A DNA stretch of 64,000 nt from Dethiosulfovibrio peptidovorans (GTDB lineage Bacteria; Synergistota; Synergistia; Synergistales; Dethiosulfovibrionaceae): the NCBI GenBank assembly GCA_002748665.1, contig PDTB01000015.1, positions 62,001-126,000 of the forward strand. The letters run 5' to 3'. Under the pieces are notes generated by a model. That model had not been told where the DNA came from. It ran no database searches and saw only the letters and a program-made list of their open reading frames with translations. The position numbers were made by a program, and so were the translations under genes. This document shows positions 47,774 to 62,119 of the stretch, piece by piece (position 1 is the first letter of the stretch; every line of letters begins with the position of its first letter).

Positions 47774-50608
47774 TTATTTCTTAAGGAAGCCCAGAGGGGC
47801 CAGAAGGAGCAGAGCTGCCGGGGCAAAGCCCAGGTTACATCCGCCGCCACCGGAAGAGCCGCCGGCGTTCTTACTGACGATAACGGACGCCTTCGCCTCG
47901 CCGTTGACCGTAGGATCGGCCTTCAGCTTAGCGGTGACGACAAGGTTCATAGTTCCTTCATTCTCGGCCTTGACAGTCAGCTTACCAGCAGCCACATCGG
48001 CCGTCTTGTCCACACCATCAAGCGTCCAGACGACATCCTGAACCTCGACATCGTCGGAGGTCTTGTAGGTCCATTTGCCCAGTTCGAAGGTCACGTTAGC
48101 ACCCAACTGAACCTGAGAAGGAGCCGTCACGACACCGGTCAGGTCAGGAGTAGGCACGGGGGGGGTACCGGGGTTCACCGGATCGACGATATCCTGACCA
48201 ACCTCGACAAGAATCGTGTAGCTGTTCTCGTCCAGATGCGCCACCGCATTCTTCACGATGTCGGAGGTCGTCGTCCAGGTGATGCGGACCTTTGCGTAGT
48301 CCTCGTACTCGACAGTGCTGTTCTCACGCAGGAAGTGCAGCGCATTCCAGTTAACCGCATCAGGTGAATAGACCAGCTTGATCCAGCCCTTCTTGATCTT
48401 ATCGCCGGTGAGGTGAGAGGGATCCAGCTGGATGGCCAGACGCCGGTCGCGGTTTACTTCGCCATAGCCGATCGCAGTGTAGTCGATCTCACGGGCCTCG
48501 AAGACCGCAGGCTTGGCCATGGCTTCGGCGCGAGTCGCGGCGATGTCATCATTGCGCAGGACCATGCGGATACGAGAGTCGTTATTGATCGTCAGATCCA
48601 TGTAGGGCTTAAAGTCGTTGACGTCCTTGCCCAGAGACAGAGTCGCACCATCAACCAGGGTTACGTCCATAAAGGGATCCTCGTTGGCGGCCTGCTGAGC
48701 AGCGGTCCGAACAGGGAAGCTGTTGAGCTGCAACACGCCACGGTCGACAAAAACATCGCTGGGGTTGATCATAACACCAGCAGCCCTGTATACCGCATCA
48801 GTTGACACGGGCGCACCGAAGAGCACCGTCCCTTGCCAATTCTTGGGCATTAAATTACCAGCAAGGGGAAGACCATTCGTAGTGGGAACATCGGCAGGGT
48901 TGATGGTCAGCCGCCCATTATCCAAGGTGATATCTCTGAAAGACAGAGTCTGTCCACGCTCGGCAGCGAGGGCAGCCCCACTGCCTCCACCATCCTTCGT
49001 AAAGGTATCGCCACTCACCTTAAGAGTCTTAGATGCAGTCAAGGTCGCCAAGTTTGCGGTAGTAAAATCACGATCAGCACCGCCAGTAGCACCAACGGTC
49101 ACATTACCGTTACCGATCGATTCATTGCCAGCAATCTCCAGAACGCCGTTGGCGACAAGGGTCTCACCAACGATGTCATTCGACAGGTTGGAGACGAACA
49201 AAACAGTTTGACCATCATCTGTGATGTTGGGATCCTGAGGATCGCCAGTCGGACGAGCAGGCGAAGGAAGCGAATTGAGCACCAGATCAAACTGCCCTTT
49301 CAAGAGACCGTCAGCGTGGGAATACCTTCGGTCAAGCGTTACGGCAATCTGAGGCTTGTAATTCGTACCAGCCAGGGTGTACTCGTTAGCCTGGAAGGTA
49401 GCCCCCCCGGCGACGTTGAAGTCGCTGAAGAACTGCGACCGGTCAACTTTGACCCGAGCAGTGTCCTGAACATGCAACGGATTGTAAATTGCGCCACCAG
49501 CAGCAACCCCACCAATTGCCATAGCTACATACTGACGAGGCGTGTTCGCAACAGCGCCCGGAGCGGAGGTCGAGCCCTCAAACGTATTCCAAACCTTACC
49601 CAAAGAGCCGCGGAAATGGTCGCCCACGACAGCAGAGACACCGCCAATAACCTCAAGGAGACCGCCGTCCCTGACGACCGTACCACCGAAATGATGCACC
49701 CCGTCAACAGGAGCGGTGGAACCACCATTCGGCGCCAAGCCAGGCTCACCGCCGTTTACCCACAAACGACCGTCGCCGGTTTTTACCAAACGAACATAAG
49801 TGTTCGCCCCCGCAGCAGCAAAACCAGCGAGAGTGTCAGCTCCAGCACCAACCACATAGGTAGGGGCGGTATAATCACGCTGATCCAAACCATGTCGAAG
49901 CATCAGGCCGTTGTTGGACGCAGAAGTCTGGGGCACGTTAACCTCGACGTACCGCAAGTCAGTGTTAGCGGCAGGAGGATCAGCTGCCCACAGAAGATAA
50001 AAAGGCTGAACCGTAGCAGCCCCAGTGGGATCGTTTTTACCCAACTGGACTTCGTTGACGCCCTCTGTCTGGAAAACAGGAGCCGAGGCTTCATTGACGT
50101 TACCAAGAACGGCGACCCAAGCCTGACCCAGCGCATTGCCCCGCGTCACGCCCAGAGTACCGGACTCCAGAACCGTTCCACCGGAATACTCCGTCATGTT
50201 AGCGCCGCCAGCATCACCGGGATTATCGCCGTTGGAAGCCTTCATCACGACCTTACCCGGCGCATCAGCATCGTTGACCACAACCTGAATGTTTGCCGCA
50301 GCCCCCGCTGTCACGGCCGCAAGACGATAGGGGCCGCCAGGAATCCCAGCACCGCCAGGTGCCAAGGTGACGACATTGCCGTCAGCCGCGTTGAGACGGA
50401 GAATCTTGTCGACTGCAACCACAAGATCAACGCCACCCCTCTGGGTGCCGTTTCCGGTAATGATACCAGTACTCGTAGCACCAGCGGCCAAATCCACAGT
50501 TACATCGTTATTCCCACTAAGTACGAGCGTATCGAACGCCCAAAGCACCCCTGCTCCCAGCACTAAGGCCAGTGTCACAAGGCTAAATACTTTCAATGTC
50601 TTTCTCAA
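47774..50608 (-). CDS. secreted repeat protein with Synergist-CTERM sorting signal
   Basis: 944 residues from a TTG start that has AAGGAGG eight bases upstream. Signal peptide: RKTLKVFSLVTLALVLGAGV then LWAFD. The body is Gly, Ala, Asn and Val rich with passenger-type repeats, for example YSGGTVLESGTLGVTRGNAL (near residue 140), FGGTVVRDGGLLEVIGG (near 307) and GETLVANGVLEIAGNESIG (near 480), suggesting a beta-solenoid. A Big/PKD-like domain precedes the C-terminal GGGGCNLGFAPAALLLLAPL then GFLKK. That tail should be recognised by a phylum-specific sorting enzyme. Likely an abundant surface protein; the role is unknown. Confidence 0.85.
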   Translation of the reverse strand: MRKTLKVFSLVTLALVLGAGVLWAFDTLVLSGNNDVTVDLAAGATSTGIITGNGTQRGGVDLVVAVDKILRLNAADGNVVTLAPGGAGIPGGPYRLAAVTAGAAANIQVVVNDADAPGKVVMKASNGDNPGDAGGANMTEYSGGTVLESGTLGVTRGNALGQAWVAVLGNVNEASAPVFQTEGVNEVQLGKNDPTGAATVQPFYLLWAADPPAANTDLRYVEVNVPQTSASNNGLMLRHGLDQRDYTAPTYVVGAGADTLAGFAAAGANTYVRLVKTGDGRLWVNGGEPGLAPNGGSTAPVDGVHHFGGTVVRDGGLLEVIGGVSAVVGDHFRGSLGKVWNTFEGSTSAPGAVANTPRQYVAMAIGGVAAGGAIYNPLHVQDTARVKVDRSQFFSDFNVAGGATFQANEYTLAGTNYKPQIAVTLDRRYSHADGLLKGQFDLVLNSLPSPARPTGDPQDPNITDDGQTVLFVSNLSNDIVGETLVANGVLEIAGNESIGNGNVTVGATGGADRDFTTANLATLTASKTLKVSGDTFTKDGGGSGAALAAERGQTLSFRDITLDNGRLTINPADVPTTNGLPLAGNLMPKNWQGTVLFGAPVSTDAVYRAAGVMINPSDVFVDRGVLQLNSFPVRTAAQQAANEDPFMDVTLVDGATLSLGKDVNDFKPYMDLTINNDSRIRMVLRNDDIAATRAEAMAKPAVFEAREIDYTAIGYGEVNRDRRLAIQLDPSHLTGDKIKKGWIKLVYSPDAVNWNALHFLRENSTVEYEDYAKVRITWTTTSDIVKNAVAHLDENSYTILVEVGQDIVDPVNPGTPPVPTPDLTGVVTAPSQVQLGANVTFELGKWTYKTSDDVEVQDVVWTLDGVDKTADVAAGKLTVKAENEGTMNLVVTAKLKADPTVNGEAKASVIVSKNAGGSSGGGGCNLGFAPAALLLLAPLGFLKK

Positions 50609-50932
50609 TCTGAATTCCTCCTTACCAACTTCCATCCTCATCCATAGCAGCATCCGCTCACTCAAGAGCCTTGATACAACATGGAATCTCCACAGCTCAA
50701 CGCGCATCCGTCCTTTTGCCTACGACGGAGAGGCACTGTACGTGCCTGTCATTCCTCCTCTGAATTGACGATATACGTCAATCAGGAGTTCTCCGAAGAC
50801 CACGCATCGCAATCATCAAAAACCTCGCCCAATGCCTGCAACCACTCCTTTCTGCGATTCACTCGTTTTGTTGGGGGACTCCTTTTCGGAGCTTTTTGAT
50901 AATAACGACCCAAGCCACCCTTGTTGGGTCAG
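50609..50932 (-). promoter_or_regulatory. long 5' leader of the surface protein gene
   Basis: About 320 bases lie between the promoter and the TTG start. Visible stems are GACCCAA/TTGGGTC (50907-50913 with 50924-50930) near the 5' end and AGGCAC/GTGCCT (50731-50736 with 50742-50747). No open frame in it looks like a gene. Such leaders are common for abundant surface-layer messages and may stabilise the RNA. Confidence 0.5.
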
Positions 50933-51090: not shown

Positions 51091-51120
51091 CATAAAGCCC
51101 CTGGGCTCAGGGGCTTTATG
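51091..51120 (-). terminator. hairpin after the sigma-factor gene, probable terminator
   Basis: CATAAAGCCCCT (51091-51102) pairs perfectly with AGGGGCTTTATG (51109-51120), six bases past the stop. The 3' T content is low, so termination may be partial. Confidence 0.6.
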
Positions 51121-51126
51121 AGAAAA

Positions 51127-51624
51127 TTACAGACACAGGTTCTTTTTCAGCGGCCTCAGCTTTTTCTGGAGTTTGCGAACCATGTAGCTGACGTTTTGTT
51201 GTGTGCAGCCAAGCATCTGGGCTATTTCTCTTTGTGTGTCGCCATCGAGCAGGCAGTCGATGAGCTCGCGTTCCCCAGGGGTGAGGTCGATACCGGTGAG
51301 CAGAAGCTGAGGACTGTAGTATGGCCTTTGGTCGTGAGGTTCTACGCCAGCTTCGGCGAGGACGTCAAGACGATCATGCGAGGCCTGGCGTCTGAGGCGC
51401 CTGGCGACGTCGCGAACCCGACCGGGAAGCATGTTTGACATGTACAGGGGCAGGGGGGTCCCTTCGGGGCATCTCACGATGAGGTCGAGGACTTCGCAAA
51501 ATCCCTGTGAGAGGAGGTCTTCCCACTCGGCCCCTCTGCCGGAGTATCTCCCGGCGGTTTTTTTGATGAGGGGAAGGTAGTTCATGGCTGTCTGCATCAG
51601 TTCCTGATGGGTGTACTCGCTCAT
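51127..51624 (-). CDS. sigma-70-like factor of the YvrJ/DUF2922 cassette
   Basis: 165 residues. Residues about 10-85 resemble sigma region 2 (NYLPLIKKTAGRYSGRGAEW then EDLLSQGFCEVLDLI); residues about 110-160 are a region 4 helix-turn-helix (LTPGERELIDCLLDGDTQRE then IAQMLGCTQQNVSYMVRKLQ). AAGGAG precedes the ATG. It closes a five-gene run and starts 23 bases after the M15 peptidase. It probably directs or tunes transcription of the cassette, but whether it is a true sigma factor is untested. Confidence 0.75.
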   Translation of the reverse strand: MSEYTHQELMQTAMNYLPLIKKTAGRYSGRGAEWEDLLSQGFCEVLDLIVRCPEGTPLPLYMSNMLPGRVRDVARRLRRQASHDRLDVLAEAGVEPHDQRPYYSPQLLLTGIDLTPGERELIDCLLDGDTQREIAQMLGCTQQNVSYMVRKLQKKLRPLKKNLCL

Positions 51625-51647
51625 TTATTTGTTTTCTCCTTTCATTA

Positions 51648-51998
51648 TTATGCGGTGTCCGTTCGAATTGCAAGGTGGACAAAGCCCCGTGCGCCATAGG
51701 GTATGACCTGCTCGAAGCCCTGTTTTTTCGCCAGGCGAGCGAACCGCCCCTGTTCGACCGGTGTAACGGCAATGTCTGCCGCTGCACCGATGAGATGGCG
51801 GCTCCCCGGGATACCGCCGACGTCTCTGTTGTGTCTGGTGCATCGGTATCCGCTCGTGATACGCAGCGGGCCCCAGATGCCCCGAAGGGCCTCCAGCCGG
51901 AGGAGCAATTCCGGCTGGAGGCGAACCCTGAGACAGCAGGGGCACTGAAATTCGCTGAGCGTGAAGTGCGGCGAGATGCGCAGGTGGTTATCGTGCAT
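51648..51998 (-). CDS. M15-family D-Ala-D-Ala carboxypeptidase/endolysin-like peptidase
   Basis: 116 residues. ISPHFTLSEFQCPCC at the start and SGYRCTRHNRDVGG, SRHLIGAAADIAV and GFVHLAIR carry the zinc and catalytic residues (His and Asp of HLIGAAAD, His of FVHLAIR) of M15A enzymes. No signal peptide is evident. This compact form is usual among phage endolysins. Its start lies inside the last codons of the YvrJ gene, an 11-base overlap. Confidence 0.83.
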   Translation of the reverse strand: MHDNHLRISPHFTLSEFQCPCCLRVRLQPELLLRLEALRGIWGPLRITSGYRCTRHNRDVGGIPGSRHLIGAAADIAVTPVEQGRFARLAKKQGFEQVIPYGARGFVHLAIRTDTA

Positions 51999-52143
51999 TG
52001 GCCGGCCCTTCGGCTATGGCGATTTTCAGGTCGTTTATGGCCTGGCTGAGTTTTTCGAGCCGGTTTTCCATTCGTATCAGCAAATACGCTGCCACGGCGA
52101 CGGAGAACCCGTTCTGGAGCACGCCGGCCAGAAACTCTTCCAT
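51988..52143 (-). CDS. YvrJ-family small membrane protein
   Basis: 51 residues, starting MEEFLAGVLQNGFSVAVAAY and continuing LLIRMENRLEKLSQAINDLK. One N-terminal hydrophobic segment with the Gly-Phe-x-x-Ala-Val pattern followed by a charged amphipathic helix matches the YvrJ family (PF12841). GGGAGGTGA precedes the ATG; it starts 15 bases after the DUF2922 stop. Topology is holin-like, and it sits just before a cell-wall peptidase gene, but no lytic role is shown for YvrJ. Confidence 0.8.
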   Translation of the reverse strand: MEEFLAGVLQNGFSVAVAAYLLIRMENRLEKLSQAINDLKIAIAEGPANAR

Positions 52144-52158
52144 TTATTCTTCACCTCC

Positions 52159-52362
52159 CTAGGCGACGATGTCGGTGACGACTCGGTCGATGAGCTGCGC
52201 GCTTACGATGGACGTGACAGCGGGCTCAAGGGCCTGGATATCGATGACGGTCTGCATGGCATCCCGAACGTCTTCTTCGTTCTGGGTCTCTTTGGCATGC
52301 CGAAGGCTCACACTGACCTTATGGCCGTCTGCACGGGCGAATGTCATCCGAAGGGTTTTCAT
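52159..52362 (-). CDS. DUF2922-family small protein
   Basis: 67 residues beginning KTLRMTFARADGHKVSVSLR, with NEEDVRDAMQTVIDIQAL in the middle and a VVTDIVA end, the pattern of DUF2922. The ribosome site CGAAAGGAGGTGAA is very strong and identical to that of the next gene upstream. Function unknown. It shares length, hydrophobic spacing and a T-D-x-V-A end with the DUF1659 product, suggesting distant paralogy. Confidence 0.78.
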   Translation of the reverse strand: MKTLRMTFARADGHKVSVSLRHAKETQNEEDVRDAMQTVIDIQALEPAVTSIVSAQLIDRVVTDIVA

Positions 52363-52406
52363 TCAGTTTCACCTCCTTTCGTTTCCCCAGGTGGGGGGGG
52401 GCGGCT

Positions 52407-52625
52407 CTAGGCCACGACGGTGTCGGTGTCCGTTTTTCGAACCTCGACGACCGGCACAGAGAGGAGGCCGCCCAGTTTTTGGGACAGGCTGTCAATCTGG
52501 TCTGCGGTGAGGTTGGGGTTGACCCTGGAGATGGAGAGTCGCCCCAGTTCGGGCTGGCCATCGGCTCCAGTTCCCACCTGGCAGATAAGGCTGATGCGGC
52601 TGCCCATGGGGTTGTATGTCGCCAT
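52407..52625 (-). CDS. DUF1659-family small protein
   Basis: 72 residues: SRISLICQVGTGADGQPELG and RLSISRVNPNLTADQIDSLS, ending VVEVRKTDTDTVVA, which fits DUF1659. First gene of the cassette. AAGGAGGTG lies eight bases before the ATG and can pair with CACCTCCTT in its own leader. Function unknown; DUF1659, DUF2922 and YvrJ genes are habitual neighbours in Firmicutes. Confidence 0.78.
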   Translation of the reverse strand: MATYNPMGSRISLICQVGTGADGQPELGRLSISRVNPNLTADQIDSLSQKLGGLLSVPVVEVRKTDTDTVVA

Positions 52626-52632
52626 ATGTGTT

Positions 52633-52678
52633 CACCTCCTTTCGTTTGGGAGTCACTCTGTAGAGTGGGAAGGAGGTG
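52633..52678 (-). promoter_or_regulatory. leader hairpin that can hide the DUF1659 ribosome site
   Basis: On the minus strand CACCTCCTT (52678-52670) is a perfect 9-base complement of the Shine-Dalgarno AAGGAGGTG (52641-52633). Between them CACTC/GAGTG (52667-52663 with 52658-52654) forms an inner stem. The structure would block translation when folded. Confidence 0.55.
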
Positions 52679-52844
52679 GGATGTTCACAAAGGAGCGAAG
52701 GAGGGGCTTTTTAAAGGACGGGGTACTGAACGAGAGAAGCCCCTGCTCTCAGGGGGCCTGTGTTATGGTGATTTGTGATTCATATGGAGGATTTACGGGG
52801 AAAGAGGGAAGGGAAGGCATGGTACGCTTGATTGTCCTGAAGAT

Positions 52845-53444: not shown

Positions 53445-53498
53445 TCACAGCAGAGAGCAGAACACCTCTCTTGTATTCATGCATAAGCCTATGTGGGA

Positions 53499-53527
53499 TT
53501 GTCGTTTTCAATCACATGTGAGATACT
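53499..53527 (+). promoter_or_regulatory. candidate promoter of vapD
   Basis: TTGTCG, 17-base spacer, GATACT, 26 bases before the ATG. Confidence 0.5.
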
Positions 53528-53552
53528 TTATATGGGAAAGGAGGTTTTCTTG

Positions 53553-53840
53553 ATGTACGCCATAGCGTTTGACTTAGAAGTTGCCAAGCTCAAAGAAAAC
53601 TATGGAGATCCTTACAATAACGCCTACCTCGAAATAAACAAGGAACTAAAAAACATAGGCTTCAACTGGACTCAGGGTAGTGTGTATCTCCTTTCTGACC
53701 CAGAGAATAATTTAGCGACAGTATACAAAGCCATTAGCATTTTAAGTGGCATCAAATGGTTCAAAAGATCCGTTCGAGATATCAGGGTTTTCAAGGTAGA
53801 GGACTGGTCTGATTTTACCGAAATAGTGAAGGGTTCTTAG
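53553..53840 (+). CDS. vapD: VapD-family endoribonuclease toxin
   Basis: 95 residues, the usual VapD length. [40 protein letters not shown] and GSVYLL then [18 protein letters not shown] follow the family closely, including the N-terminal Asp at residue 7 that parallels the Cas2 catalytic Asp. AAAGGAGG lies eight bases before the ATG. VapD is a Cas2-fold mRNA-cleaving toxin; no obvious antitoxin (VapX type) is encoded beside it. Base composition is lower in GC than its neighbours, consistent with transfer. Confidence 0.88.
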
Positions 53841-60659: not shown

Positions 60660-62119
60660 ACCTGCAGGAGCTCCTGAGCGATTATCAGTTTTGGCTGATG
60701 GTTTTCTGGATTCATGGCATATCGTCCTGGCTTATACGTCTTTGTATGCTGGCTGCGGTGCCTTTGCGTCATTCAGCAGGTGCTGCAATGGCCTGGCTCA
60801 TCGTTATTTTTTTCTGGCCATGGCCGGGTGTTATTTTGTATCTCGCCATGGGGTCCAGGCTCTTACCCCAAAAGCGGATCCAACGTCATCAGGAGCTTTT
60901 GAAACGTACCTCCGCTGCACGGGGCACGTGTCGGAACGCACTGTGCGAGACAACGCCGGAACTCCCCCCAGCACTGCACCGGATCTCGTCCCTGGCTCAG
61001 TCTCTGGGACATATGACGATCGTCGGGGGCAACGACGGACGATTGATTTTTGACGCCGAGACACTGTCTCGCGATGTGACCCGGGATATCGACCGAGCGC
61101 GTTACACGGTTGACCTTCTCTATTACATTTTTTCCGACGACAACATAGGAGGCCCCGTGATGGAAGCGTTGATCCGGGCAGCTCGGAGAGGGGTTAATTG
61201 CCGCCTGCTCCTGGACAGCGTTGGCTCATCTCAATTTATCAAGCTCGGCCGAGCCCGCTGGCTGCGAACTCAGGGGATCCAGGTCGTCGAGGCCCTGCCA
61301 GCCAGGCTCTTTCGCTATCACGCCGCCCGATTTGATCTCCGAAACCACAGAAAACTGGCCGTCGTGGACGGGAAAATTGCCTATACTGGGTCTCATAACA
61401 TGATCGACTCTCACTATGGCCATAACGACCTGATCTGGCGAGATCTTTCGGTTCGTCTGGAGGGGCCTGTCGCCCGGCAGCTTCAGGCCGTGTTTCTGGA
61501 AGATTGGTTTGTGGAAACTCAGGAGGAACCCAATCTGGACTGTCTTGCCGCACCAACGGAGTATCGGGGCTCCGTAGCGGTCCAGACCGTACCGAGTGGA
61601 CCGAACTACAAGACCGAGAACTATCAACGTCTGATCGTCTGCGCTCTTCACGATGCTACCAACCGGGTCGTGATCACAACGCCCTATCTCATCCCCGACG
61701 AGAGTCTGCTTCAAGCTCTTCAAGTGGCCGCTCTGCGAGGCGTAACAGTTCAAATGATAGTGCCAGAGCGCAGTGACCAGTTTTTCGTGGGGCATGCCGC
61801 ACGATCATATTACGAGGAGCTTCTGAACATGGGGGTTGAGATTCACCAGTTTCAGCACGGTCTTCTTCATGCCAAGACGATGACTGTCGACGGCAAGCTG
61901 ACCTTTTTCGGCTCCAGTAATTTCGATATTCGATCCTTTGCCCTCAACTTCGAGATCAATTTGGTGTTCTACGGCGAAGAGGAAACTCAATCACTCCTTC
62001 GAGCCCAGGAGTTTTTCCTGTCCCGATCAGTTCAGCTCACGTCCCAACGCTGGGAAGGCCGCCGCTGGATTTTCCGTCCTCTGGAAGGAGCCGCCAGAAT
62101 CCTCAGTCCCCTTCTATAA
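60656..62119 (+). CDS. cls: cardiolipin synthase, phospholipase D superfamily
   Basis: 487 residues. Two N-terminal membrane segments, then two HKD motifs: HRKLAVVDGKIAYTGSHN (near residue 230) and HAKTMTVDGKLTFFGSSN (near 404). This is the architecture of Cls, which joins two phosphatidylglycerols at the membrane. Starts inside the EEP gene by ATGA overlap. Confidence 0.9.
   Translation: MNLQELLSDYQFWLMVFWIHGISSWLIRLCMLAAVPLRHSAGAAMAWLIVIFFWPWPGVILYLAMGSRLLPQKRIQRHQELLKRTSAARGTCRNALCETTPELPPALHRISSLAQSLGHMTIVGGNDGRLIFDAETLSRDVTRDIDRARYTVDLLYYIFSDDNIGGPVMEALIRAARRGVNCRLLLDSVGSSQFIKLGRARWLRTQGIQVVEALPARLFRYHAARFDLRNHRKLAVVDGKIAYTGSHNMIDSHYGHNDLIWRDLSVRLEGPVARQLQAVFLEDWFVETQEEPNLDCLAAPTEYRGSVAVQTVPSGPNYKTENYQRLIVCALHDATNRVVITTPYLIPDESLLQALQVAALRGVTVQMIVPERSDQFFVGHAARSYYEELLNMGVEIHQFQHGLLHAKTMTVDGKLTFFGSSNFDIRSFALNFEINLVFYGEEETQSLLRAQEFFLSRSVQLTSQRWEGRRWIFRPLEGAARILSPLL

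Follow-up and report, generated by a model that had tools for sequence, protein, structure and literature searches.

The 64,000-nt window analysed here (positions 62,001 to 126,000 of contig PDTB01000015.1 of Dethiosulfovibrio peptidovorans, assembly GCA_002748665.1) carries on its minus strand, between positions 52625 and 51127, five consecutive open reading frames (ORFs) that encode, in this order, a DUF1659 protein, a DUF2922 protein, YvrJ, a Peptidase_M15_3 protein and an extracytoplasmic function (ECF)-like sigma factor. The operon is preceded by a conserved two-block element, which is very probably the promoter recognised by the operon's own sigma factor and would thus define a small regulon. 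That the operon as a whole represents a cellular, sigma-controlled release module is, in our judgement, an evenly balanced proposition, and the balance is somewhat more favourable for a holin/endolysin-like action of its products.

The predicted promoter (52659–52691, minus strand) consists of TTTGT (52691–52687), a 19-nt spacer (N19) and CACT (52667–52664), which lies 42 nt ahead of the DUF1659 start codon. The longer pattern TTTGTN{18,20}CACTNTAYA has one match in the whole 2.06-Mb genome. An unsupervised two-block search of 41 non-redundant upstream regions from sigma-linked loci yielded CcaTTTGTa - CACtcTTAtAga with a log-likelihood of 290, compared with 72–80 in three shuffled sets. Counting was restricted to the 135 loci for which a DUF1659 start and 120 nt or more of upstream sequence were available (53 linked to the sigma gene and 82 not linked). 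TTTGT-N19-CACT precedes DUF1659 in 33 of the 53 sigma-linked Synergistota loci, compared with 4 of the 82 others and with an expectation of 0.03 per 53 loci in shuffled sequences. All other spacings from 10 to 28 taken together were found in a single sigma-linked locus (N26) and in three non-linked loci. The 33 element-bearing loci are distributed over 15 genera and 6 families, or over 19 genera and 7 families when the four non-linked exceptions are included. Each of these exceptions (genomes G119, G120, G164 and G166) contains the sigma gene elsewhere in the genome, in G120 probably as the result of a contig break. The first-pass annotation, which was made from the sequence of the window, had described the gene set as a self-regulated module with a dedicated sigma factor, and the conserved promoter-like element upstream lends support to this description.

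Genomes in which the operon is dispersed are informative in this respect. In G166, the DUF1659–DUF2922 pair and YvrJ-M15-sigma occupy two different contigs, and in G164 the split, again between contigs, separates the pair plus YvrJ from M15-sigma; in both genomes, the element precedes each half. Its distances from the YvrJ start (131 nt) and the M15 start (85 nt), both placed by simple ribosome-site calling, are longer than usual. Two genomes of a single genus, G015 and G016, possess the operon without the M15 gene and contain a second element 27–28 nt before an unlinked gene for a 184-aa (amino acid) GH108 muramidase; given their common genus, a single evolutionary event may account for both. 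In addition, G134 contains five orphan copies of the cassette-type sigma gene (L296–L300), and the element is always found 57 nt before the start, as TTTGT-N19-CACT in two cases and as the one-base variant GTTGT-N19-CACT in three. This is the arrangement that an autoregulated sigma gene should display. Four of the five orphan genes adjoin the same IS3-like transposase genes, and it seems that a self-activating sigma gene has been spreading with an insertion sequence in G134. Sigma paralogues were also observed near genes of other types: one is located near a YadA-type trimeric autotransporter (L301 in G124), and others in G161, which has eight cassette-sigma matches, near repeat-rich ORFs (L306 and L307; those of L306 had no Pfam match). 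This sigma family may have some connection with surface proteins.

Several observations count against the promoter assignment. The exact element is missing in 20 of the 53 sigma-linked loci, several of which have near variants, and a genome-wide search with TTTGTN19CACTNTTA returned 60 matches in the phylum compared with 55 for the reversed control. Furthermore, the operon itself contains a sigma-70-like match immediately ahead of the sigma gene (51673–51644; 1 found versus 1.2 expected), and some expression of the sigma gene by the housekeeping enzyme is possible. It is the position of the matches, not their number, that makes the element special: 31 of the 60 are placed before the pair or before YvrJ, M15, sigma or GH108 genes. 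Of the others, 12 were read: eight fall within coding ORFs or run antisense to them, no plausible target could be seen for three, and one, described below, is a possible regulon member. The element could alternatively be an ordinary sigma-A site or the site of another regulator, with the linked sigma factor acting elsewhere. The loci without the exact element speak for this explanation, as does the fact that the role of the sigma factor has been deduced from sequence. We nevertheless consider it very unlikely, because the element tracks the sigma gene over the 19 genera and 7 families, unlinked cases included, and because no sigma-70-like promoter was detected ahead of the operon in a scan for such sites.

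Some further upstream sequences were noted. In G166, TTTGT-N19-CACTCTTA is located 76 nt before an ORF of 231 aa with a likely signal peptide (around position 2001 of L284), which is a possible additional member of the regulon. Second sites in one genus (f3; G019, G021 and G022) looked conserved, but both of those that were read proved to be antisense to a gene and were rejected. ComK boxes (AAAA-N5-TTTT) were found in only 2 of 10 plasmid-type upstream regions and are not supported. An element upstream of Bacillaceae loci, TCCTTTTT-N11-CCTATATAAAAG, reached a likelihood of 189 against 114–126 in shuffled sets, with the favoured spacing in 11/28; this is suggestive only.

The family assignments of the five genes, which the first-pass annotation had made without database searches, were all confirmed by profile searches. 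The DUF1659 (52407–52625, 72 aa), DUF2922 (52159–52362, 67 aa) and YvrJ (51988–52143, 51 aa) proteins scored 53.5 bits (E = 2.3e-14), 62.5 bits (E = 3.5e-17) and 51.6 bits (E = 6.5e-14), respectively, each over the curated Pfam cut-off (24.1, 25.5 and 29.5 bits) across most of the model, which was our definition of membership in these families. Peptidase_M15_3 (51648–51998, 116 aa) was assigned with 74.4 bits (E = 9.2e-21; cut-off 23.2) and also matched the PHROG endolysin family phrog_894 (E = 9.4e-32). The sigma factor (51127–51624, 165 aa) contains regions 2 and 4 only; it scored just over the Pfam cut-off for Sigma70_r2 (24.7 versus 24.0 bits, E = 2e-5) and below that for Sigma70_r4 (19.8 versus 24.1 bits), and residues 11–157 matched the NCBIfam sigma70-ECF model TIGR02937 (53.2 versus 42.9 bits, E = 2.5e-14). 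The five genes are co-directional, as expected for the single transcript that had been proposed, and the proposed overlap is present, the M15 gene starting inside yvrJ with an overlap of 11 nt. The description of the ribosome sites as very strong stands for the first three genes, whose Shine–Dalgarno sequences are near-perfect as judged by eye (AGGAGGTGA at 52640–52632 for DUF1659, AGGAGGTGA upstream of DUF2922 and GGGAGGTGA for yvrJ), and from which we infer high expression of the small proteins. It does not hold for the sigma gene, whose AGGAG is fair, or for the M15 gene, where none is visible by eye. Because the M15 gene starts inside yvrJ and has no visible Shine–Dalgarno sequence, it is probably translationally coupled to yvrJ. 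A perfect 13-bp inverted repeat resembling a terminator follows the sigma gene (51091–51120, minus strand); it was read directly from the sequence and is not among the terminators listed by the terminator scan.

YvrJ, the proposed holin-like component, is the sole evident membrane protein of the unit and, by eye, has a single N-terminal hydrophobic segment and a charged C-terminal stretch. In the endolysin-like M15 protein, H68, D75 and H108, which we take to be the His-Asp-His metal-binding positions of Peptidase_M15_3, are invariant across 22 aligned proteins. No signal peptide is visible in this protein, and the hydrolases seem to begin directly with the catalytic domain, as far as can be judged by eye from their N-termini.

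The replacement of its parts gives an indication of what the module does. Five unrelated hydrolase families were found beside the DUF1659–DUF2922 pair: M15_3, which our own profile detects at 76 of the 140 Synergistota loci; GH108, at four loci from a single genus (identified by Pfam at L086, the others sharing its sequence start); VanY/M15_4, on Geobacillus-type plasmids (Pfam at L178); Amidase_3, assigned by Pfam in Peribacillus and B. taeanensis and by sequence start at four more Bacillaceae loci; and, in Aerococcus, CHAP. The filling of one slot by five hydrolase families argues for wall cutting as the function under selection at this position. Likewise, recognised holins occur in loci without YvrJ, namely Phage_holin_4_1 at L111 and L175 and Phage_holin_Dp1 at L180 of Aerococcus. 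The regulator also varies, being either the sigma factor or a ComK-like protein encoded upstream. The exchange of both hydrolases and holins points to a holin/endolysin-like release module, and the lysis or secretion role that the first-pass annotation had mentioned as a possibility has gained support from it.

The first-pass annotation had also considered the arrangement worth tracing outside Firmicutes; the set is no oddity there and is widespread in Synergistota, the phylum of the window itself. Among 185 Synergistota genomes, DUF2922 was detected in 130, DUF1659 in 132, YvrJ in 87 and the cassette sigma factor in 74 (profile A6, E ≤ 1e-12); the genome of the window carries a single match to each of these four profiles. 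The 140 Synergistota loci comprise the best DUF2922 match in each of the 130 genomes and 10 further copies. DUF1659 is present in 137 of them, which indicates that the association of the genes is not due to chance. The exact order DUF1659-DUF2922-YvrJ-M15-sigma is found in 42 loci, and YvrJ, a hydrolase and the sigma factor are all present in 50. YvrJ and a hydrolase occur together in 75 loci, YvrJ alone in 10, a hydrolase alone in five and neither in 50. In Bacillota, 56 of 80 genome loci found through YvrJ (the best 80 of 155, a selection uninformative on DUF2922 without YvrJ) contain the DUF1659–DUF2922 pair, in agreement with the earlier statement that the three small families travel together in Firmicutes. 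The pair is also present on plasmid records of Geobacillus, Parageobacillus, Peribacillus, Lactobacillus, Aerococcus and Paraclostridium. Among the control genomes, Thermotoga maritima gave DUF1659 and DUF2922 profile matches, and Bacillus subtilis gave none to either family. As side observations, sbcD/sbcC-like genes, recognised by sequence motif, are present in 26 of 90 Firmicutes loci, accompanied by the full pair in seven (L203, L215, L224, L242, L251, L252 and L259) and not in the other 19, and YvrJ is separate from the pair in nine Domibacillus loci.

The pair itself consists of two small proteins that are near neutral or slightly acidic. AlphaFold models of both DUF1659 (predicted local distance difference test score, pLDDT, 90) and DUF2922 (pLDDT 83) show a beta-beta-alpha-beta arrangement. 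Profile comparison with hhalign gave a probability of 71% over 40 columns, which is suggestive only; judging from this comparison and the models, the two families may be distant paralogues. Sequence searches identified no credible solved relative of either protein, and the nearest solved folds were matched weakly and at insignificant levels (a phi29 p6-like fold was among those considered).

A number of findings count against a release module. In 48 of the 140 Synergistota loci, mostly from one genus, YvrJ, hydrolase and sigma genes are all missing beside the pair. An adjoining co-directional hydrolase was identified in 12 of 67 Firmicutes DUF2922 loci, a count for which Pfam was run on four of the 12 and the neighbours of the other loci were scanned only in part. 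Five Synergistota loci have the M15 gene without YvrJ: a holin gene is present in two (L111 and L175) and the contig ends at L133, and in the other two (L135 and L171) no holin is visible. The match of YvrJ to PHROG holin family 4898 is weak (E = 0.005). In addition, a 2010 study placed DUF1659 in a cluster with sporulation-associated domains (PMC2955703), which our model does not explain. Because the pair occurs alone in many loci, it must have a role that does not depend on release genes in cis. The pair could instead be a stand-alone intracellular unit, for example, a heteromer binding nucleic acid or RNA polymerase, with YvrJ, the hydrolase and the sigma factor as optional partners that use it as a lysis regulator or timing factor. 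We regard this explanation as possible and worth keeping in mind, at clearly less than even chances.

An origin of the operon as a prophage lysis cassette, domesticated for programmed lysis (altruistic death or turnover) with the pair as bystanders, was also considered. In its favour, the M15 protein is of the endolysin type, as its match to phrog_894 indicates, and some Synergistota copies are prophage-like, with tail-fibre-like genes at L133 and L175 and holin genes at L111 and L175; in G119, a YvrJ-M15-sigma copy (L274) follows phage-like holin/DUF4376 genes. PHROG 21372 matches DUF2922 (5.5e-4). Moreover, a gut virome study names PF11148 and PF12841 among the commonest viral functions differing between groups and lists an amidase and a middle operon regulator alongside them (PMC11170907). 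This PHROG match and the listing in the virome study make it probable that divergent phage copies of the families exist. However, a tblastn search of 50,697 phage records yielded no credible DUF2922 or DUF1659 match (one chance match at E = 5), and scans of viral contigs with DUF2922 or YvrJ queries detected no relative; a phage origin of the pair was rejected on these grounds. The suggestion of a phage-derived particle at this locus is likewise not borne out. Six ORFs within ~7 kb of the locus were scanned with Pfam, and no phage structural or replication genes were found among them: four are transporter or Cas2-like genes (an ABC ATPase, an SSF symporter, a purine/cytosine permease and a Cas2-like protein) and two were unmatched. 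Furthermore, the most constant part of the system is the pair, not the lysis genes. We therefore judge a domesticated lysis cassette to be quite unlikely. Separately, on a plasmid of a P. bifermentans soil isolate (L184), the triplet has an amidase and a Mor-type activator in its vicinity. In view of this and of the virome listing, phages or plasmids may carry a version under Mor-type control.

The release module that we favour could operate as follows. The ECF-like sigma factor would recognise TTTGTA-N18-CACTNTTATA and transcribe its own operon, together with the scattered parts where the operon is split. A cell switched on in this way would make the small cytoplasmic proteins DUF1659 and DUF2922 in large amounts, and with them YvrJ, a membrane peptide with one segment, and a peptidoglycan hydrolase without a leader, in this case the M15 peptidase. 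YvrJ might then act like a BhlA/UviB-type holin and give the hydrolase access to the wall, and local wall opening or the lysis of a few cells would release DUF1659 and DUF2922, either as cargo or as a small assembly. Since the pair also exists alone, we have low confidence that it is released cargo and consider this part doubtful. The most specific version of the proposal, which we put forward as speculative and improbable in its entirety, is that DUF1659 and DUF2922 are both subunits of an as yet undescribed entity, either a small assembly outside the cell or a two-component effector. A subpopulation would produce it in bulk and release it with the help of YvrJ, acting as holin, and of a replaceable hydrolase, all under the control of an autoregulated and partly mobile sigma factor; the whole would be a cellular secretion or lysis system, phylum-wide and common to Synergistota and Bacillota.

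Two neighbouring genes deserve mention. The plus strand at 53493–53840 encodes a protein of 115 aa that matches a Cas2 profile (6.6e-7), and a 977-aa protein, probably secreted and with a GGGGC...LLLLAPLGFLKK C-terminus, is encoded just downstream of the cassette (47774–50707, minus strand); Pfam gave no match for the latter.

In a literature search by family names and accessions and on the subjects of Synergistota, type 10 secretion, holins and sigma factors, with most subscription papers outside its range, we found no description of the module, which appears to be unstudied. DUF1659 and DUF2922 are almost absent from this literature, yet DUF2922 is present in 130 of the 185 Synergistota genomes, and Bacillota and Thermotoga likewise possess both families. 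The promoter, the sigma factor and the exchangeable hydrolases provide a concrete and testable context for these two families, and the module may represent a sigma regulon dedicated to release of the holin/endolysin type, located outside phages and outside those toxin loci from which such systems are known. The short and rigid promoter, whose longer pattern has a single match in the genome, also makes the sigma factor a candidate orthogonal expression tool.

Among known systems, a close parallel is found on plasmid pIP404 of Clostridium perfringens, where the sigma factor UviA is associated with the BhlA-family holin UviB, an amidase endolysin and the bacteriocin Bcn5, which has no Sec signal (PMC9527704). 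The present operon similarly combines a dedicated alternative sigma factor, a small (here proposed) holin, an endolysin and co-expressed protein without a Sec signal. It differs in several respects: the libraries used gave no match between YvrJ and BhlA, an M15 or GH108 enzyme serves as hydrolase, the DUF1659–DUF2922 pair stands in place of a large bacteriocin, and the sigma gene comes last in the operon. Type 10 secretion, represented by ChiW/ChiX of Serratia and their relatives, provides a Gram-negative example in which a holin and an endolysin serve the cell and not a phage (PMC9527704); unlike that system, the operon here contains no Sec-dependent chitinase cargo and possesses its own sigma factor with its own promoter. 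The alternative sigma factor SigO-RsoA (YvrI-YvrHa) of B. subtilis transcribes yvrJ (PMC8103513), and a yvrJ gene is thus placed under an alternative sigma factor in both cases. However, the sigma factor here is a single chain, the operon has no oxdC, and B. subtilis has no DUF1659 or DUF2922 match. Finally, the plasmid cassette of Geobacillus and Parageobacillus shares the DUF1659, DUF2922 and YvrJ core followed by a leaderless M15-type enzyme; it differs in that the enzyme is of the VanY type, from another M15 subfamily, that the gene upstream codes for a ComK-like protein or is unnamed and of regulator size, where the present operon has a sigma gene, and that an integrase gene is nearby.
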